A DNA stretch of 64,000 bases, taken from contig CAUJDI010000063.1 in the NCBI GenBank assembly GCA_963169565.1, forward strand, positions 1-64,000, given 5' to 3'. Source of the DNA: Bacillota bacterium. Lineage in GTDB: Bacteria; Bacillota; Clostridia; Christensenellales; Aristaeellaceae. The first letter of the stretch is position 1, and each line of letters begins with the position of its first letter. A model generated the notes under the pieces. That model saw only the letters and a list, made by a program, of their open reading frames with translations, was not told where the DNA came from and did no database searches. A program made the translations under genes and the position numbers. Below, one piece after another: positions 3,374 to 64,000 of this stretch.

Positions 3374-4574
3374 AGCACTGGAGCGTTTCCTGCGCTACGC
3401 TCAGATAGATACGACCAGCGATGAAAATACCGGCACGATCCCAAGTTCACCGGGGCAATGGGATCTGGCGCGTCTGCTGCAGAATGAGCTGACAGAGCTC
3501 GGCATGCAGAAAGTCACGCTTGATCAGAACTGTTATCTTGCCGGAATGATCCCGGCCAACGCGGAAAACCAGCCGACCATCGCGTTGATCGCTCATCTGG
3601 ATACCGCTGACGCGGTTCCCGGGCGGGTGTTCAGGCCCCGCGTAGTCCGGTTTGAGGGCGAAGACCTGGTTTTGAACGATGAGTTGGGGATCCGCCTGTC
3701 CGCAAAGGATTTCCCGGCGCTGAACGGCTTCCTGGGCCAGGAACTGGCCGTGACGGACGGCACGACGGTGCTGGGCTCTGATGACAAGGCGGGGATCGCA
3801 GAAATCATGACCGCGTGTGAAACGCTCATTCAGCATCCTGAGATCAAGCACGGCGAGGTCTGGACCGTTTTCACGCCTGACGAGGAGATCGGCAGCGGCG
3901 CGGAACTGTTGGACCTTGACCTCATCAAGGCTGACTTCGGCTACACGCTGGACGGCGGCGCGCCTCATGAGATCGAGTACGAGAACTTCAACGCCGCCTC
4001 AGCCAGGGTGACCGTTCAGGGCCGAAACGTCCATCCGGGCTACGCAAAGGGCAAGATGGTCAACGCGATCAGACTGGCCATGCGCTTCCATGCCATGCTC
4101 CCAGCCATGGAGACCCCGGAGCTGACGGAAGGTTATGAAGGATTCTTTCACCTAAGGAAATTCTCCGGTACTGAGGAGCAGGCGGTACTGGACTACCTCA
4201 TCAGGGACCACAGCCATGACGGATTCATGGCCAGAAAAGCCGTGATGGAAAAGGCGGCCGATGTGCTGAATGCCGGCATCAACGATGGCAGGGTTTTGCT
4301 GACAATCACGGACAGTTACAGAAACATGAACGAAGTCATCATGAAAGCGCCTCACGTCCTGGAGCGCGCGGAAAAAGCGATCAGGGCCTGCGGGATGGTG
4401 CCAAAAGCCGTTCCGATCCGCGGTGGCACGGATGGCGCAAGGCTGTCTTTCAGGGGCCTTCCCTGTCCGAACCTGGGCACGGGCGGCATGAACTGGCACA
4501 GCGTATATGAATTCCTGCCTGTTGAATCACTGAGAAGAATGGCAGAGGTGATTGTGGAAATTGTCAGAGCTTAG
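3366..4574 (+). CDS. pepT: Peptidase T (tripeptide aminopeptidase)
   Basis: MDKALERFLRYAQIDTTSDENTGTIPSS; IALIAHLDTADA; VLGSDDKAGIAEI; FTPDEEIGSGAELLDL. Confidence 0.93.
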   Translation: MDKALERFLRYAQIDTTSDENTGTIPSSPGQWDLARLLQNELTELGMQKVTLDQNCYLAGMIPANAENQPTIALIAHLDTADAVPGRVFRPRVVRFEGEDLVLNDELGIRLSAKDFPALNGFLGQELAVTDGTTVLGSDDKAGIAEIMTACETLIQHPEIKHGEVWTVFTPDEEIGSGAELLDLDLIKADFGYTLDGGAPHEIEYENFNAASARVTVQGRNVHPGYAKGKMVNAIRLAMRFHAMLPAMETPELTEGYEGFFHLRKFSGTEEQAVLDYLIRDHSHDGFMARKAVMEKAADVLNAGINDGRVLLTITDSYRNMNEVIMKAPHVLERAEKAIRACGMVPKAVPIRGGTDGARLSFRGLPCPNLGTGGMNWHSVYEFLPVESLRRMAEVIVEIVRA

Positions 4575-5901
4575 CCTGTTCTCCCCGAAAGCCATCAGAA
4601 AACTGCTCATTCCGCTGATATTTGAGCAGTTTATGATGGTATTGGTCGGTGTGGCGGATACGATGCTGCTTTCCGGCATCAGCGAATCTGCTCTCTCCGC
4701 CTTTTCCCTCGTGGACAGCATCAACCAGCTGTTGATGCAGGTGTTCATGGCGTTCGGCGCGGGCGGTGCGATCATCGCGGCACAGTACCTGGGAAGCAGG
4801 GACCGCAAGGGAGCCGAAAACACGGCAAACCAGACCGTTCTGATGGTGCTGTCCATCTCGGTGTTCATCGCGGTTCCTGCCATCCTGCTGAATGGCCCGA
4901 TCCTGCGTCTGATCTACCCAAGGGTCAATGAGCGCATCATGGGGTATGCCAGGCAGTACTTCCTGCTGTCAGCGATCTCCTACCCCGCCCAGGCAATCTA
5001 CAACAGCGGCACAAGCATGCTGTACGCGCAGGGATACAGCAGGCTGTCCATGGTGACCTCCATCGCGATGAACACCATCAAGATCCTGCTGAATTTCGTC
5101 CTGATCAATGTTTACCATATGGAGATCCGCGGAGCAGGGATCGCCACGATCCTCTCCCGCCTGATCGGCGCGGTCATGGTCAGCTGGTTCCTGATGGATC
5201 AGCACGCGCCCATCCATTACACAAGGCCCTTCAAAGTCGCGTTCAACCGCAGCATGAACCGCCGGATTTTCGGCGTTGCCCTGCCAAGCGGGATGGAGAA
5301 CATCCTTTTTCTGATGTGCAAGCTGGTCATCGGCATCATGATCGCCGGTTTTTCCAGCACAATGATCGCGGCGAACGCGGCGTCCAACACCATTTCCACC
5401 TACATCAGCATCCCTGCCAACGCCATCAACCTGGCGACCATCACCATTGTCAGCCAATGCATCGGCGCAGGGCGCGAAGAAGAGGCAAAACGAGCGACTG
5501 TCAGGCTGCAGATCGCAACCCATGTGTCCCTGTTCATCATGGGAGCCCTGGTCGTTGCCTTCATCGATCCAATCGTCCGCATGCTCAAACTCAATCCCGA
5601 GGCCTATGCCTACACCCGGCAGATCTCCATCATCTACTGTCTGGTTTCCGTCTTCCTCTGGGCGCCGGCCTTCGGCCTTCCCAACAGCCTGAGGGCGGCG
5701 GGTGACAACCGCTATGTCATGTATGCGGCCGTTTTCAGCGTCGTGATCTTCCGTACCCTGGGCTCTTTCATTATGGGCAATCTTCTTGGATTTCAGATCC
5801 AGGGGATCTGGTACGCGATGTACCTTGATTGGGCTGTGAGGTCGACGTTCTTCCTCTGGCGGTTCAGAAGCGGGAAATGGCTCAAGCACCGCTTGGTATA
5901 A
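4552..5901 (+). CDS. MATE family efflux transporter
   Basis: 12-TM NorM/DinF-like protein (VGVADTMLLSGISESALSAFSLVDSINQLLMQVFMAFGAGGAIIAAQYLGSRD). Confidence 0.9.
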   Translation: MWKLSELSLFSPKAIRKLLIPLIFEQFMMVLVGVADTMLLSGISESALSAFSLVDSINQLLMQVFMAFGAGGAIIAAQYLGSRDRKGAENTANQTVLMVLSISVFIAVPAILLNGPILRLIYPRVNERIMGYARQYFLLSAISYPAQAIYNSGTSMLYAQGYSRLSMVTSIAMNTIKILLNFVLINVYHMEIRGAGIATILSRLIGAVMVSWFLMDQHAPIHYTRPFKVAFNRSMNRRIFGVALPSGMENILFLMCKLVIGIMIAGFSSTMIAANAASNTISTYISIPANAINLATITIVSQCIGAGREEEAKRATVRLQIATHVSLFIMGALVVAFIDPIVRMLKLNPEAYAYTRQISIIYCLVSVFLWAPAFGLPNSLRAAGDNRYVMYAAVFSVVIFRTLGSFIMGNLLGFQIQGIWYAMYLDWAVRSTFFLWRFRSGKWLKHRLV

Positions 5902-5905
5902 GCTA

Positions 5906-6826
5906 TTATCCCACAATGATCTGGTTCAGATCCTTGCTCAGTCCGGCACTTGCACTGCCGACAAGGCCAACCAGCAGATAGTTTTCGCTGAGCTTGTCGT
6001 AATACAGCTCGTTGAGGAAACGGAAGTTCTCCACCTTGCCGGTCGAACTGACGTGCATCCGCGGCCCGGTGCAGCGGTGGAGCGTATTGCCGATATAAAT
6101 ATGTTCATGATCCTTATAGGCGATGGGCAGGTCCTTTGCGATCAAATCGTTCACTTCTTCGGTCAGCTCCGGGATATCGATGCTGACCGGATGGTCGAAT
6201 CTCAGGAGAAAGCCGCGCCGGACGTCCCCGTGCGTATAACGTCCGACCCGCATCCGCATCAGAAAGTGTTCGGTCAGGTCCTCCGCGGTGTGCGCCATCC
6301 GGCGGTACTTGATGGAGGAAAAAACCGTGCTTGCAATATCCTTGGGTTCCGGTCCGAACAACGTCGGCCGGGATACGATGATCTCGTCCCCGATGCCGAT
6401 CAGAAGCTCTGCATTGATGTTCAGCAGAGGGAAGATCAGGTCAAAATGCTCAACGATCACCCTTTTCCCTTTGTCAAGCGCGGAAAGAACGGCCTCCGCC
6501 AGCTGGGGCAGGGGGGTGAAGGCTGATTCAAAGCGGGCATCCATGTGATAGGTATGCGCCTGGTAAAACCCTGCATCCTGAACGTCCAGCAGGGGCAGGG
6601 GGCGGACATTGACGCCGTTGTCGTCGTTTGTCAGTTCGACCCCGGGAAACATGCCTCGGATCAGAAGGCTTTTTCCTGATCCCGCGTCCCCTATGACACC
6701 GATGAGTTTATCCAGAGAGCTCAGATGATGCTGGGCAATCTCATGCCCGATCTGCATCATCCGAACGTATCCGCGCGGCGCAAAGTAGACGCTGTACAGG
6801 GGTTCCTGCCCAAGGATCTGATTCAT
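5906..6826 (-). CDS. P-loop protein with AlaRS/ThrRS second-additional-domain-like C-terminal half
   Basis: Walker A GDAGSGKS; C-terminal HTAEDLTEHFL...CTGPRMHVSSTGKVENFRF resembles the HxxxH...CxxxH...TG layout of the AlaRS SAD. Last gene of the glutamate mutase operon. Confidence 0.75.
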   Translation of the reverse strand: MNQILGQEPLYSVYFAPRGYVRMMQIGHEIAQHHLSSLDKLIGVIGDAGSGKSLLIRGMFPGVELTNDDNGVNVRPLPLLDVQDAGFYQAHTYHMDARFESAFTPLPQLAEAVLSALDKGKRVIVEHFDLIFPLLNINAELLIGIGDEIIVSRPTLFGPEPKDIASTVFSSIKYRRMAHTAEDLTEHFLMRMRVGRYTHGDVRRGFLLRFDHPVSIDIPELTEEVNDLIAKDLPIAYKDHEHIYIGNTLHRCTGPRMHVSSTGKVENFRFLNELYYDKLSENYLLVGLVGSASAGLSKDLNQIIVG

Positions 6827-6829
6827 CGG

Positions 6830-7162
6830 TTATCCCTCGGATCCCGGCACATCCACCTGAATGGACAGCAGGGGGGCGTGCTGCTGGGCGCCGTACACAT
6901 CGGTCTCGCCCAGGTCTCCCGAACAGATGGGCCGCACGATGGTCACCTTGATGGCATAGGCGGGCTCAAAATGGATGATGCCGATGATCCTGTCCGGCGT
7001 GATCCTGTAGAGCCTGCAGATCAGGTCCTCATTGATGACGTTCTCCCTGATGGCAAGCCTGTAGTTCTCCTCCGAACTGAACATGATGTCCAGCGTCAGC
7101 TCATAAGGGCCGGAGTTCTTGCTGCGGATGATGCTTGTGAGTTCGGTGATGTTCTTCTTCAC
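6830..7162 (-). CDS. DUF4387 domain-containing protein (AtuA-associated)
   Basis: Small protein (ELTSIIRSKNSGPYELTLDIMF...ITPDRIIGIIHFEPAYAIKVTIVRP) directly downstream of an AtuA-family gene. Confidence 0.8.
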   Translation of the reverse strand: MKKNITELTSIIRSKNSGPYELTLDIMFSSEENYRLAIRENVINEDLICRLYRITPDRIIGIIHFEPAYAIKVTIVRPICSGDLGETDVYGAQQHAPLLSIQVDVPGSEG

Positions 7163-7171
7163 GTTTCCACC

Positions 7172-8536
7172 TCAGACCTTCTCGATCGCCATTGGGAAAA
7201 GCGCGCAGGGGTCCTCTGTCTCAAGCAGATGATAAACGCTGAACACAAAGACCTCACCGGCATGGAAATCACTGGGTGAATATGGGAACGCAAGGTTGCC
7301 GGCCGTAGCTCTCCTGCCCTGATACCCATAGTGCAGCATCGTGGACCGAGCGGCCGCGCAGATGGTGTCGGCATGGGCCTGGGTATCAGAGACTGCTTCG
7401 ATGACAATGCCTATTTCGTGCCCTTCGACAACAGGATGGGGTTCCAGCGCACCCATGACGCCGTCCCGTCCGAAGACGTTGAACAGAAGCTTATACTCGA
7501 TCCCTGACGCAGAGAAATTGTCCCTGACCCGTTCGCGCACGCCTGCCGTTATTTCATCGATGCGGCTGAGCATCACGGGATCGCGCGCCCCGGCGATGGA
7601 TACAGTCCTGTATCCGATGCGTCTTGCCCCCTCGAGTTTGACGGTATAGGGGTCCGACGGGATGAAGCGGCTGCCACTGACGCGTGCGATGCGGTCTGTG
7701 ACCTGCTCAAACTTCGTGCCATAAAGGTCAAGATGCCCTCCGGGGCCTGGAAGGATATAGGGGTTGGTCTTTTCATAAAGGGTATGCGCCGCGACTGACA
7801 GGGTCGTGCATTTTCGGATGGGATTGAGCGGCTCCAGATCGAACGAATCACGGCGCAGATAGCCAAACATGCAGTCGGAACCGGATCCGGGGGTCGCCGC
7901 GATGGAGGCGCATTCCAGGATCTTTCCCATGTGAACCGCAAGGCCTCTGTCAAAACCAGCGCGCACAGCGGGGGCGGCAAACACCGCCGGGTCATAACAG
8001 CGGCCGGCAAGGACGACCTGTGCGCCTCCGTCCAGCGCGCGGATGATCGGTTCTATCCCCATCTGCGCGACGATGCTGACGGTTTCCTCAAGCGCTTGTT
8101 CTGTCAGTTCCGGAGCTGGTTCAAGGGGCTTCACCTTTCCCCTTTGCATCGCGTCCCTGACCCTGTCCTTCGGGATCTCCGCATGGATCACAGCAAGGGA
8201 GAAATGAAGGTCCTGCTCCCTGGCGATCTCCAGGATGATGTCCCGGCACCAGGCAAGGTGCCGGTCCCCTCCGCTGCCTCCGGCACTGCCGATCACAACG
8301 GGGATCCCCCTTGACATCCCGGCGGCCAGCATCAGTTCAAGATCGCGCTTCACAGCGCCGCGGTCGGTAAAGGATATCCCCGCGCCGAGGTAATAGGGGC
8401 CCGGATCGGTTGAGCCCGCGTCAACGGCGATCAGATGAGGGTTTCTGGCCAGCCCTTCCTGAAAAGAGGCAAGCGGAAAACCGTATCCGAGGATGGCGGT
8501 CGTCGAAAGGATCCTGTATTCATCCATTCGGTTCAT
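7172..8536 (-). CDS. Acyclic terpene utilization AtuA family protein (DUF1446)
   Basis: AVDAGSTDPGPYYLGAG...VVIGSAGGSGGDRHLAW...ILPGPGGHLDLYGTKFEQVTDR...SIAGARDPVML motifs. Confidence 0.88.
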   Translation of the reverse strand: MNRMDEYRILSTTAILGYGFPLASFQEGLARNPHLIAVDAGSTDPGPYYLGAGISFTDRGAVKRDLELMLAAGMSRGIPVVIGSAGGSGGDRHLAWCRDIILEIAREQDLHFSLAVIHAEIPKDRVRDAMQRGKVKPLEPAPELTEQALEETVSIVAQMGIEPIIRALDGGAQVVLAGRCYDPAVFAAPAVRAGFDRGLAVHMGKILECASIAATPGSGSDCMFGYLRRDSFDLEPLNPIRKCTTLSVAAHTLYEKTNPYILPGPGGHLDLYGTKFEQVTDRIARVSGSRFIPSDPYTVKLEGARRIGYRTVSIAGARDPVMLSRIDEITAGVRERVRDNFSASGIEYKLLFNVFGRDGVMGALEPHPVVEGHEIGIVIEAVSDTQAHADTICAAARSTMLHYGYQGRRATAGNLAFPYSPSDFHAGEVFVFSVYHLLETEDPCALFPMAIEKV

Positions 8537-8542
8537 TCCTCC

Positions 8543-9817
8543 TTAGGGTTTCAATACACCGATGCCGTTTTTCCTCAGCGCGATGATCCTTTGCATTTCA
8601 TTGAAGCAGATCATGTACGCCTCGTCGACGCCCATGCCGGGTTTTGCCAGGACCTGGTCGGCATTGACCGCCATTGCGCAATGGATGCAGACCTGTGCAG
8701 AGCGGTCCGTCTCGTTGCAGGTGCCGCCCTGGTAAGCGCCGACTCCCTTTTGCTTGCAGTACAGCACAGCCTCGCAAGTGTTGTGGATGCTCCCCAGGTC
8801 AGGGGTCTTGATCTGGATCATATGCCCGGCGGCATTGTCAGCGAAATAGATCACATCCTCCAGTGTATTGCACCACTCATCGGCGACGATCTCGACATGG
8901 ATGCCCCGCTGATCGATCTCCCTGCACAATCCCCGCAGATCGCGCATCTGCGCTTCCCGGCTGCCGGAATCCATCGGGCCTTCGATGCGAAGATGGAAAG
9001 GCGCTGCCTCCTTTTCCAGCTGTTCAAGGTAATCCGCCATCCCGATATAGTTGTCAGCGCCGAAGATCTGTCCGACGGTTCCGTAGCAATCGATATGGAA
9101 AACGGGGCGGTAACCCTCATGCGGGGCGACGTCCCTGACACGCTGCTTGAGCCATTTGACATAGGCCAGAAGATTCTCGCCCTTCTGGCCGGTTTTGGAA
9201 ATGCTGTTGAACAGCCCGTGCGGCAGCACCGGCGCGCCTTTGAGGATCATCTTGTCCGCGTTGCTGTACCGGTCATCGCCGGACTGGGTAAAGATCGGGA
9301 GGATGCTCCCAGAGACGGTGGTCCCGTATTCCATGGCCACCAGGTCGCACATGTTCAGGCCCTTCGCCTTGGCGACCGCGTCAAGGATCGCCTGTGAAAC
9401 GCCATAACGGATCGCGGTGTGCAGCTTTTTGCCTTCGGCATCAGTCAATCCGTCGATTTCCCCCGCCAGCCGCCTGAAGCTGTCCGCTTCCTGGCCGATC
9501 AGGTGAGAAGCGACGTCATGCTCAATGATAGGAATAAAGCTGTCCGCGAGAAACAGGGGATCGCGTCCTCCCGCTCCCGAGTACTGCACCGCCGCGCAGT
9601 CGCCCCATCCGATCTGCCCGTTCTCAAGGATGATCTGTACTGAGATGGATTCCCCCGGCTGGCGGATGCGGCTGAACCCGGGGGTCATCGGCTCACCGGA
9701 ATACACCGCGCCGTCCGATATTGCCCCCTGCTTGATGGCTTTCTGATCGTCAAAGTAGAAACCGGTCAACCCTTTTGAACACACAAGGTTAATGATTTTC
9801 ATAACAGCCCTCCCCAT
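8543..9817 (-). CDS. mal: Methylaspartate ammonia-lyase
   Basis: Enolase-superfamily 3-methylaspartase motifs (GLTGFYFDDQKAI; YGVSQAILDAVAKAKG; HIDCYGTVGQIF; EIVADEWCNTLED; QIKTPDLGSIHNT). Confidence 0.95.
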   Translation of the reverse strand: MGRAVMKIINLVCSKGLTGFYFDDQKAIKQGAISDGAVYSGEPMTPGFSRIRQPGESISVQIILENGQIGWGDCAAVQYSGAGGRDPLFLADSFIPIIEHDVASHLIGQEADSFRRLAGEIDGLTDAEGKKLHTAIRYGVSQAILDAVAKAKGLNMCDLVAMEYGTTVSGSILPIFTQSGDDRYSNADKMILKGAPVLPHGLFNSISKTGQKGENLLAYVKWLKQRVRDVAPHEGYRPVFHIDCYGTVGQIFGADNYIGMADYLEQLEKEAAPFHLRIEGPMDSGSREAQMRDLRGLCREIDQRGIHVEIVADEWCNTLEDVIYFADNAAGHMIQIKTPDLGSIHNTCEAVLYCKQKGVGAYQGGTCNETDRSAQVCIHCAMAVNADQVLAKPGMGVDEAYMICFNEMQRIIALRKNGIGVLKP

Positions 9818-9823
9818 ATCGCA

Positions 9824-11275
9824 TCAATGCGGTCTGCCGACCAGGCGCCCCTTGGAGATCGCATAAATGTCATCAATGACCATCTGGAATGAAACCCCTC
9901 TGTTTTCAGCTTCAGCTCGCTGATGGATCTTGCCGCGGTGGAACCTGAGCAGTTTTTCATTCAGCGGCAGATTTCCCGCGTCAAGCAGTCGGACAGCGCC
10001 ATTGTTGTCCCTGGCCGGCATGATCTTTCCGGCATTGTAGCGGCTTGGCGCAAATGGTACGTCGATCACGCCCGCTTCAAATGCCCTGACAGTCCCTAGG
10101 GCGACATCCCCCTCTCCCAGCTCCAGCGTGCGTTCCAGGATGCAGGAGGTCTCCTCCCGGATCACTGACATCTCCTCCTCAAGCCGCCCGCCGTCATCAA
10201 GCGACTGGTCCGCCAGCATTGTGATCATCTGTTTGGTGGCGCGGAGGCCGGCGGCATTGGCCTCCTTGGTCGGCACGCCCAAGGCCTCATGCGGCGACTT
10301 GACGATCACTTTCGTGGCATTGGCAAGCGCGGCGACGGAGCTGCCCCAGCAAATGACGGCGAAGGCCTTTGCCTCATCCTGCGGGAATCCGCCCATCCAC
10401 TGATGAAGGACCGTGCTGATCGTGACGTCTTTGTATCCGAAACGTTCAAGGTATTCGTTTGTCTGCTTTTCAAGGATCCTGATTGCCGCGACATCCTGGA
10501 TGAGGTTCCCGCACTGTCCATAGCCGACCGTAATGTTTCTGACCCCCTGTTCCGCCGCCAGCAGGGTCTCGATGATGGCCACGGCGTTGGAGACACAGGG
10601 CGGGACCAGCGTTCCGGTCAGCGGTCCGAAAGGCTCTCGGTTGACGGAGATTCCCGCATCTTCGTACAGCCCCACCAGTCTGTCGCAGTACTGCCAGTTG
10701 TACAGGGTCTCCTTCATCGGCGCGTTTTTTGCGTATGGGATGTTGTAGGAGATCCCGCCGCCCTCAAAGCTGGTGAACCCCCCTGCCAGGGTGATCTCAC
10801 TCAGCAGGCGGGCGTCCGGTGTACCGTGGCGGACCTGGACGGGGGTCTGAAGCGCGGACGTGACCATCCTGCACCCCGTGATCCCGTGATTGACCGCGGG
10901 GAACCCGTTGAGCATGGCTTTCCCCGTCGCCTTGGATTCATCGATCCCCCGTTGGGCATCCTCATAGCGGTTTAGACGGGTGTAGCTGTCGATGGTGGTA
11001 GGCAACAGGTCTGCCTCGCCTTCCTTCTCAAGGTGGCTGAGCAGCGCGATATGTTCACTGATGAGCGGGACACCCGCGCGGGGCTGGACCAGGGTCTTTC
11101 TGCTTTTCTGCGCCTCATTGAGCTTGGTGACAAAACGTCTGTCCAGGGGGATCCCCTTTTGGTAGCCGATCGCCTCATCCAGATCCACATCGGCTCCGGT
11201 AGGCCATGTTTTCAGGACCTCCTGACGCTGTGACATAAAAAAGTCCAGGGGCCATTTCTTATTGGACAGCTCCAT
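9824..11275 (-). CDS. glmE: Methylaspartate (glutamate) mutase epsilon subunit
   Basis: GlmE-like TIM-barrel sequence ([56 protein letters not shown]). Start chosen at MELSNKKW. Confidence 0.95.
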
Positions 11276-12659
11276 ATGCGCCTTCCTTTCCAAATTGCTC
11301 CAGCATCAGCCTGAGCGCCGTTTCACGGTCAACCCCCGAAAGGAGCCCCATTGCGGAGAGAGTATACCGGCTGTCGCACAGGGCCTTCACGTGCCTTGGC
11401 GTGAGCGCAGTCGGGTCCTGCATGGACAGCGCAATGTTGACGATTCCCGTCAGATCTGGCGCGTAGATCAGCGCGCCGCCGGTCAGAAGCATCAGTTCCG
11501 TGCGCGTCAGGTCCTTGCCGGTCTGCTGATCCACAGGGCCGATGGGCGTGTAGACGCGCTCAAGCGTACCGGCATGGCGGGCCAGTGCGCAGTAAAGCGC
11601 CCCGATGGCCAGCGCGCGGTCGACATCCTGTTCTTCCCGCGTTTCGGGAAGCTTTGACGGGTCGCTCCGAAAAGCCTCGGCGGCATCCATGATGGCCGGA
11701 GCAGGCACTGAGGCGATGTTCGCAAGCCTTTCCGCCCCGACGGCCTGGATGACGCCCCTGGCGCTGTAGCGCATGCCGATGTCGCCCTCCACCGTCCGCT
11801 TGGCATGAGGCTCAGGAAGGCCGCGCAGAAATACGTTGGGATTGGAGGGGTCTCCCCTGGCGATGGAATACACGTCAGTGGTCGCGCCACCAAGATCAAC
11901 AGCGATGAGTTCTCCAAGGCCGCGAGTCCTCTCCGTACCTTCCGAAAGAAGTGTCAGCGCTTCCAGCACCGCTGAGGGCGTGGGCATCAGGATCCCGTCC
12001 AGGACCTCGCTCACGCTGCTCATCCCCTTCGCTCGGACGATGCGTTTCAGGAACAAGTCCCTGATCATCTCCTGGACCGGGCCGGCGTTGAGCCTGTTCA
12101 TCTCCGGCATCACATTGGGCGCGAGGAAAACAGGATGTCCGCTGCCCTCAAGCGCTTTGGTACAGTCCCGGCCGGCGCTGCGGTTTCCGGCGATGATGAT
12201 GGGATAACTTCCCCCGTCACAGCTGAGCGCCTGCGCGTTGGCAATGATATTTTCGCTGTTTCCGCCGTCTGTTCCCCCGGTCAGGAGAAGGATGTCCGGC
12301 TCCGCCTGACGGATCTCATCAATATCTTCGCTTGTCAGGCGATAGGCGAACGTCCTGATGACTTTCGCTCCCGCGCCGAAGGCGGCCAACTGCGCCGCCT
12401 TGCCGGTGAGGGCGGGGACCAGTCCGCAGACGACCATCTTCAGCCCCCCGGCGGCGCTGGAACAGGCCAGTTTTGCCTGATAGTCGATTGCTCCACAGGA
12501 GTGCTCAAGGATGGACATGGCCTTGTTCAGCCCGATGGATATATCGCTGTCCGCAGTCGTGAACGCCTGGGCGCTGCCCAGAATGCTCGGCGTTTCCAGG
12601 TCGACGGCAGTCAGTTTTGTGTAGGTTGAGCCAAAGTCGATCAGCAGGACCGGCCGCAT
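11259..12659 (-). CDS. glmL: Methylaspartate mutase accessory protein GlmL/MutL
   Basis: ASKHA ATPase [22 protein letters not shown]...[15 protein letters not shown]...; between glmS and glmE. Confidence 0.93.
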
Positions 12660-13072
12660 CGCCTATCCCCGGACAGATCTTCATTCAGTGCCCTGATGCC
12701 GGCTTCCGGCGGCGTACCGGGCCCGAAAACCCGGTCAAACCCCATTTTCAGAAAGCGCTGTTCAACCTCCTCAAACGGCTGCTTTCCGACAACGATGTTG
12801 CCGCCGACGTACAGCAGGATCCCCTTCAGGCCCGCTTCGTCGCATTTCTCTCGAAACCCCTGGCAGTCCAGTTCGCCATGCCCGTACAGGGAGGAAACGA
12901 TGATCGCGTCGGCGGCGGATTCAACGGCCGCCTCGATGAATTCTTCCTGAGATACCATGACGCCAAGGTTGACAACGTGAAATCCGGCATCCTGAAATGC
13001 GTAGTTGAGGATCTGGTTGCCAACCGCATGAACATCCGCCCCGATGACACCCAGAACCAAGGTTCTCGCCAT
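12641..13072 (-). CDS. glmS: Methylaspartate (glutamate) mutase sigma subunit, B12-binding
   Basis: [26 protein letters not shown] contains the DxHxxG base-off cobalamin motif; [18 protein letters not shown]. Confidence 0.95.
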
Positions 13073-13100
13073 ATAGCGCCTCCATTTTCCAGTCAAGGTG

Positions 13101-13129
13101 AGAATAGCCTCTGATGACCGGCTTGTCAA
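13101..13129 (-). promoter_or_regulatory. Sigma-A-like promoter for the glm operon
   Basis: Minus strand TTGACA (13129-13124), 17-bp spacer, TATTCT (13106-13101); RBS GGAGG before the glmS ATG. Confidence 0.7.
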
Positions 13130-62728: not shown

Positions 62729-63198
62729 TCATCCCGCTCCATATCGATTTCTGCCGGAAAGTCAAGGTACCTGAAGCGTCCGCGGGGCAGGAAGGTGATC
62801 CTGCGGTCGTTCTCATCCAACGGCTGCAGCAGCACTTCCAGGCAGTCCGGCGGCAGGAGCTCAGGCGCACGCTCATGCCATTCGATCAGGGTCAGGCTGT
62901 CTCCCCCCACATACTCATCAAGGCCGGCGGCATACAACTCCTCCGCGTCATTGATCCTGTACCAGTCAAAATGGTGAAGCGGGAATCTGTCTGTTTGGTA
63001 AACGTTCAATAAAGTGAACGTCGGGCTCGTCAGGGCAGTCATGATCTTAAGCCCCAGCGCGACGCCCCGGGCAAACTCGCTCTTCCCCGCGCCAAGCGGA
63101 CCGGTCAGCAGGACAACGTCCCCGGCGCGCAGCCCTTGAGCCAGCCTCTGCCCAAGCTGCCGCGTCTCAGCCTTTGACTTTGTGACGTACTGCAGCAT
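62722..63198 (-). CDS. tsaE: tRNA threonylcarbamoyladenosine biosynthesis ATPase TsaE
   Basis: VVLLTGPLGAGKSEFARGVALGL; TSPTFTLLNVY; HFDWYRI. Confidence 0.95.
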   Translation of the reverse strand: MLQYVTKSKAETRQLGQRLAQGLRAGDVVLLTGPLGAGKSEFARGVALGLKIMTALTSPTFTLLNVYQTDRFPLHHFDWYRINDAEELYAAGLDEYVGGDSLTLIEWHERAPELLPPDCLEVLLQPLDENDRRITFLPRGRFRYLDFPAEIDMERDEC

Positions 63199-63832: not shown

Positions 63833-63852
63833 TTCATTTGGCGTCCACGCCT

Positions 63853-63958
63853 GTCTTCTCTCATCCAGACTGTACTGTCGGCCATGGAATCTCACCATGT
63901 CAGCTGTTAGGCTCGCGGGCTTTACCGCCGGTGGGGAATCTCACCCCGCCCCGAAGAC
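63853..63958 (-). ncRNA. FMN riboswitch (RFN element)
   Basis: Minus strand GTCTTCGGGGCGGGGTGAGATTCCCCACCGGCGGTAAAGCCCGCGAGCC...GGATGAGAGAAGAC matches the RFN consensus. Confidence 0.97.
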
Positions 63959-64000
63959 GCTTGGTTTTCAATTGAATTCATCGTATCACAACGCGTTCTG

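Follow-up and report, generated by a model that had tools for sequence, protein, structure and literature searches.

An operon for glutamate mutase in a Bacillota bacterium raises the question of what the three genes behind its methylaspartate ammonia-lyase gene (mal) are doing. It lies in positions 1 to 64,000 of contig CAUJDI010000063.1 (assembly GCA_963169565.1), the 64,000-nucleotide stretch called the window throughout, and its genes run glmS-glmL-glmE-mal-AtuA-DUF4387-P-loop on the minus strand. A sequence-only reading of this DNA had described the last three as uncharacterised and had proposed that the AtuA and DUF4387 proteins may act on mesaconate in an alternative branch and that the P-loop protein may activate or regulate them. 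Judged by homology to an enzyme of solved structure, the AtuA and DUF4387 pair is instead the citramalate lyase CmlAB, which fills the classical last step of the pathway, from citramalate to acetate and pyruvate, and opens no new mesaconate branch. We consider it highly probable that the operon serves glutamate fermentation via the 3-methylaspartate pathway with CmlAB as its citramalate lyase. The label uncharacterised remains apt for the P-loop gene.

Identity of the AtuA and DUF4387 proteins

Each of the two proteins has one strong relative by PDB sequence search. The AtuA protein, hereafter CmlA, matched 9erq_A and 9evf over its full length (residues 7-452 of 454; E 2.1e-159), and the DUF4387 protein, hereafter CmlB and encoded 9 bp downstream of cmlA, matched 9erq_B, also over its full length (residues 1-104; E 1.1e-30). 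The chain 9erq_A is named both "Acyclic terpene utilization AtuA family protein" and "Citramalate lyase, subunit A (cmlA)", and 9erq_B is named "Citramalate lyase, subunit B (cmlB)". The predicted model of CmlA (mean predicted local distance difference test score, pLDDT, 84.8) had a template modelling (TM) score of 0.89 to 9evf_A at 55% identity, and a PDB fold search with this model gave no match below E 0.001 apart from that chain. The 9evf entry, released 2025-10-08, bears the title "Citramalate lyase - ADP - pyruvate complex", from which its ligands are known.

Escherichia coli O157:H7 carries an operon of the same order, glmS-glmL-glmE-mal-cmlA-cmlB, plus fumD. In the Sakai strain, ECs_0760 and ECs_0759 lie directly after mal, equal the PDB chains in length and share 56% and 50% identity with the window CmlA and CmlB, respectively. 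FumD has been shown to be a mesaconase in a study that left the fate of citramalate in that strain open and noted the E. coli cmlA as a DUF1446 gene without known function (Kronen and Berg 2015, PMC4682846). The window pair thus resembles the CmlAB of 9erq and 9evf in the full-length match of both subunits and in an operon order like that of E. coli O157:H7, and differs from the enterobacterial enzyme in being about 50-56% identical to it. Unlike the E. coli operon, that of the window ends in the P-loop gene, which the E. coli O157:H7 cluster lacks, and is without fumD, a transporter and an adenosyltransferase. AtuA itself, the namesake of PF07287, has been described as a lyase releasing acetate from 3-hydroxy-3-isohexenylglutaryl-CoA, in a source that counts the Atu enzymes as either characterised or no more than tentatively assigned (PMC4847356). 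The analogy to the reaction proposed for CmlAB lies in the release of free acetate from a tertiary alcohol with a CH2-COOH group; the difference lies in the substrate of AtuA, a CoA ester.

The operon and its surroundings are laid out as follows, with families assigned by Pfam and NCBIfam profiles where scores are given.

4552-5901, convergent with the operon, whose gene run ends there: MATE-type transporter, by reading of the sequence
5906..6826, minus strand: P-loop/SAD protein, uncharacterised, with a TsaE-like ATPase domain and a C-terminal tRNA_SAD-like domain
6830..7162, minus strand: cmlB (DUF4387, PF14330), citramalate lyase small subunit by homology to PDB 9erq_B
7172..8536, minus strand: cmlA (AtuA/DUF1446 family, PF07287), citramalate lyase large subunit by homology to PDB 9erq_A/9evf
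8543..9817, minus strand: mal, methylaspartate ammonia-lyase (TIGR01502, 576 bits, cut-off 286)
9824..11275, minus strand: glmE, glutamate mutase catalytic subunit (TIGR01503, 759 bits)
11259..12659, minus strand: glmL, glutamate mutase accessory/reactivating protein (NF040745, 560.6 bits, cut-off 475)
12641..13075, minus strand: glmS, cobalamin-binding subunit of glutamate mutase (TIGR01501, 208.6 bits; DxHxxG motif present as DVHAVG)
13129-13101, minus strand: promoter-like site TTGACA-17-TATTCT just upstream of glmS (10/12 matches; 0.4 expected by chance)

The seven open reading frames (ORFs) form the tight minus-strand run that had been claimed, with positions and families in agreement, gaps of 6, 6, 9 and 3 bp at glmE/mal, mal/AtuA, AtuA/DUF4387 and DUF4387/P-loop, overlaps among glmS, glmL and glmE, and the promoter-like site upstream. 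For glmS, the ATG at 13075 is a likelier start than the listed TTG at 13129. The 3-methylaspartate pathway genes glmS, glmE, glmL and mal stand together, and a site check found all the substrate-binding, that is glutamate-binding, residues of GlmE intact (R66/R100/R149/E171/Y177/Y181, Clostridium cochlearium numbering). Dozens of further genomes repeat the gene order, far beyond chance. No riboswitch was found at the operon; elsewhere in the window, an FMN riboswitch (RF00050, 114 bits) lies at 63849-63962 on the minus strand.

In the proposed pathway, GlmS and GlmE, kept active by GlmL, would convert glutamate to 3-methylaspartate, which Mal would deaminate to mesaconate. The next product, (S)-citramalate, would come from a class I fumarase whose gene lies elsewhere in the genome, and CmlAB, identified by its homology to the solved structure, would split it into acetate and pyruvate. 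Free citramalate is hard to cleave, the acetate carbanion being a poor leaving group, and the acyl-carrier-protein citramalate/citrate lyase CitDEF overcomes this via an acyl-carrier-protein thioester. In its place, CmlAB would use ATP to activate the C4 carboxylate of citramalate as an acyl phosphate (citramalyl phosphate). ATP activation is suggested because ADP and pyruvate are bound in 9evf; we regard the acyl phosphate as having about an even chance of being right, and the ADP could be a bystander or a regulator instead.

Citramalate lyases across the phylum and in this genome

CitDEF catalyses the same reaction at the same pathway position as proposed for CmlAB (PMC4682846, PMC8473912). 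No sequence or fold relation between the two was found, and the CmlAB operon has no counterparts to the thioester-bearing acyl carrier protein and the CitCXG maturation on which CitDEF depends. We surveyed 399 genomes of the phylum, 73 of which carry Mal above the family cut-off (Mal+). Close CmlA was found in 59 of these 73, and CitF, a subunit of the classical lyase CitDEF, in 10 of the 14 without it; only three Mal+ genomes, that of the window among them, carry both (Fisher p = 3.8e-7 for this near mutual exclusion). The same was seen among 14 near relatives: CitF is present in 8 of the 9 for which no CmlA match was obtained and in a further one whose sole CmlA-like protein is 38% identical, and absent from 3 of the 4 with close CmlA. 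Moreover, at four loci that have flanking genes in common with the window (L094, L097, L103 and L107), the glm-mal-P-loop run is without cmlAB, and these genomes carry CitF. This is the pattern expected of one citramalate lyase replacing the other, and we conclude that CmlAB is a non-homologous replacement for CitDEF. Across genomes, the linkage of glm and mal to AtuA-DUF4387 is conserved, and it is negatively correlated with the classical citramalate lyase. As a pathway module the pair stands, being a dedicated downstream enzyme; as an undescribed one it does not, since it was already named and solved. Separately, a distant CmlA-like clade at 33-50% identity occurs in genomes mostly without Mal (G213, G098, G117, G008 and others); its members are probably lyases for other substrates.

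The sequence-only reading had also held mesaconase and citramalate lyase to be lacking. This is so for the operon, where citDEF genes and both enzymes of the classical families are absent, and not for the genome; moreover, the AtuA-DUF4387 pair would itself be a lyase by homology. Searched family by family with profiles, the genome has, elsewhere, one class I fumarase alpha subunit (PF05681, 360.8 bits) with an adjoining beta-subunit-like ORF. Class I fumarases of E. coli accept mesaconate (PMC4682846), and the genome's own enzyme most likely hydrates it to (S)-citramalate. In the operons of eight relatives, fumA-fumB stand between cmlB and the P-loop gene (L045, L048, L049, L056, L063, L070, L074 and L085), and many CitDEF-type clusters also carry fumAB.

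These findings bear on the proposal that AtuA and DUF4387 act on mesaconate, for instance by hydrating or activating it, in an alternative branch that the P-loop protein would activate. The strong linkage of the pair to mal, in an operon with no neighbouring classical mesaconase or citramalate lyase gene, would be in keeping with such a branch, which we nevertheless hold to be very improbable. A PDB-named citramalate lyase is 50-56% identical to the pair; fumAB in the same operons as cmlAB, and fumD beside cmlAB in E. coli, indicate that mesaconate hydration is filled separately; CmlA replaces CitF, an enzyme of the step after that hydration; and the P-loop protein is independent of CmlAB, as described below.

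Several points weigh against CmlAB as the citramalate lyase of this pathway. Its activity is assigned from the naming chosen by the depositors of 9erq and 9evf, and literature searches, within the collection covered, turned up no CmlAB paper. The genome profile counts and the Fisher p ignore the relatedness of genomes, and which enzyme is the mesaconase in this genome is our inference. In addition, the genome has a citDEF operon on another contig, so CmlAB is not its only possible citramalate lyase. This operon (L183:1-7327, contig C1) reads permease-citD-citE-citF-YbhJ-like hydratase-citXG, with a permease of AbrB type and a YbhJ-type hydratase of the aconitase family (NF008503, 1146 bits), and its CitF is about equally distant from the CitF of glm clusters and from that of E. 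coli citrate lyase. Because it carries an aconitase-family hydratase, it may serve another substrate than citramalate. The mesaconate branch had presupposed no mesaconase and citramalate lyase set elsewhere in the genome; formally there is one, a class I fumarase and a citDEF operon, though with that doubt as to the substrate of the latter.

The P-loop/SAD protein

Alone in the operon, the P-loop/SAD gene has no significant Pfam or NCBIfam match, and PDB sequence searches with the protein and its family returned chance P-loop matches only. The protein has a Walker A motif, GDAGSGKS, at residues 46-53, and its predicted model has a pLDDT of 88 and a predicted TM score of 0.85. The top fold matches of the N-terminal domain are TsaE structures (1htw, 6nak_D, 5np9, 6n9a_E and 6s84_E; E 2e-5 to 1e-4), while the family scores 12.2-13.5 bits against the TsaE profile PF02367, under the curated cut-off of 26.6. 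The tRNA_SAD profile (PF07973) is matched weakly by 45 of 53 family members (best E 1.4e-4), which bears out the earlier description as P-loop plus AlaRS-SAD-like. Conserved in the C-terminal domain are H179, D183 and C252xGPRxH258, the usual zinc-ligand motif HxxxH reading HxxxD. The protein has the N-terminal fold of TsaE/YdiB ATPases and a weak C-terminal family match to the tRNA_SAD domain of ThrRS/AlaRS, and differs from both in domain combination and genomic partners. It is not this genome's t6A enzyme TsaE, a role ruled out by the canonical tsaE at window 62800-63180 on the minus strand, and is thus a distinct paralog.

The P-loop/SAD protein occurs in 73 of the 399 genomes, namely in 61 of the 73 Mal+ genomes and in 12 of the 326 others. 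We read 140 neighbourhoods of its gene, some genomes entering twice because two collections were used, and found a further pathway gene in 120 of them, alongside either CmlAB or CitDEF. Because pathway genes are found there with either lyase alike, the protein belongs to the glutamate mutase/Mal side of the pathway and would be an accessory factor of that part, not of CmlAB. As a CmlAB activator it is rejected, since it occurs with CitDEF, is retained in closest relatives without cmlAB and does not accompany the CmlAB of E. coli O157:H7; the idea that it activates or regulates AtuA-DUF4387 thereby fails. In many Clostridia the gene lies directly before rph-rdgB-yfcE, as would be expected of an unrelated housekeeping gene of that neighbourhood, merely beside glm genes. 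We find this improbable, as this window and many others lack a neighbouring rph, the gene is also found divergent to citEF-fumAB-glm clusters, and its presence tracks Mal and GlmE over the phylum.

A GlmE-family protein is present in 10 of the 12 genomes that have the P-loop/SAD protein without Mal, the exceptions being one degenerate P-loop fragment and one genome that is 63% complete. No GlmS reaches the family cut-off in these ten, which weakens the case for a simple cobalamin/GlmS chaperone.

The glutamate-binding arginine claw of GlmE has been described (PMC10947579). Five GlmE-like proteins, from genomes with no GlmS above the family cut-off, have lost R66/R100/R149 (L061:10517-11818, L062:8294-9508, L078:6815-8110, L081:8165-9469 and L092:13404-14810). 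At these loci an intact P-loop/SAD gene is adjoining or near, GlmS, GlmL and Mal are not nearby, and four of the five GlmE-like genes come after a GntR-type regulator ORF. At four other loci (L037, L040, L042 and L053; e.g. L042:10468-13039), the stretch from glmE or mal to the P-loop gene includes an HgdB/HgdC-like pair, namely a 2-hydroxyglutaryl-CoA dehydratase D-component and its activase, together with an MBL-fold hydrolase, and rph-rdgB-yfcE comes after the P-loop gene.

One possible, though doubtful, role is to assist the E chain of glutamate mutase in an ATP-driven manner, through assembly, regulation or reactivation beside GlmL. It is suggested by the GlmE-family protein in those ten genomes and by several such loci where the P-loop/SAD gene stands near a GlmE-like gene with none for GlmS, GlmL or Mal nearby, and is opposed by the absence of the P-loop/SAD protein from the E. 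coli O157:H7-type cluster. The lack of GlmS in the ten genomes and the loss of the claw in five E-like proteins also count against it, and imply that classical cobalamin reactivation is not the whole role. Somewhat less probable still is aminoacyl-tRNA quality control, in which the TsaE-like ATPase and a zinc-binding SAD editing domain would clear tRNA mischarged with an amino acid of the pathway, for instance 3-methylaspartate. The two domains each belong to families connected with tRNA, the protein is distinct from the canonical TsaE, and its distribution favours Mal+ genomes; yet the SAD similarity is weak per sequence, with HxxxD in place of HxxxH, the protein is missing from E. coli O157:H7 and from some of the Mal+ genomes, and where neither Mal nor GlmS is present it still occurs next to degenerate GlmE-like proteins. 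We therefore put forward with low confidence that the TsaE-like/SAD fusion might be a new pathway-bound factor, serving either ATP-driven tRNA proofreading against 3-methylaspartate or as a mutase E-chain partner that works after the loss of the cofactor subunit and the substrate site.

Glutamate fermentation in the phylum

The supposed undescribed metabolic module is mostly explained by the citramalate lyase of 9erq and 9evf: the main function of the operon is already known, and the remaining novelty is one conserved gene. This TsaE-like/SAD gene is set apart as a companion of glutamate mutase in the majority of these genomes, and it follows the pathway through many anaerobic bacteria. The CmlAB structures are of an enzyme closely related to the E. 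coli O157:H7 pair, and by homology CmlAB would be the common citramalate lyase of the phylum's glutamate fermenters, the majority of which would use it in place of CitDEF. A function can thus be assigned to many genes annotated "AtuA family protein" and "DUF4387".

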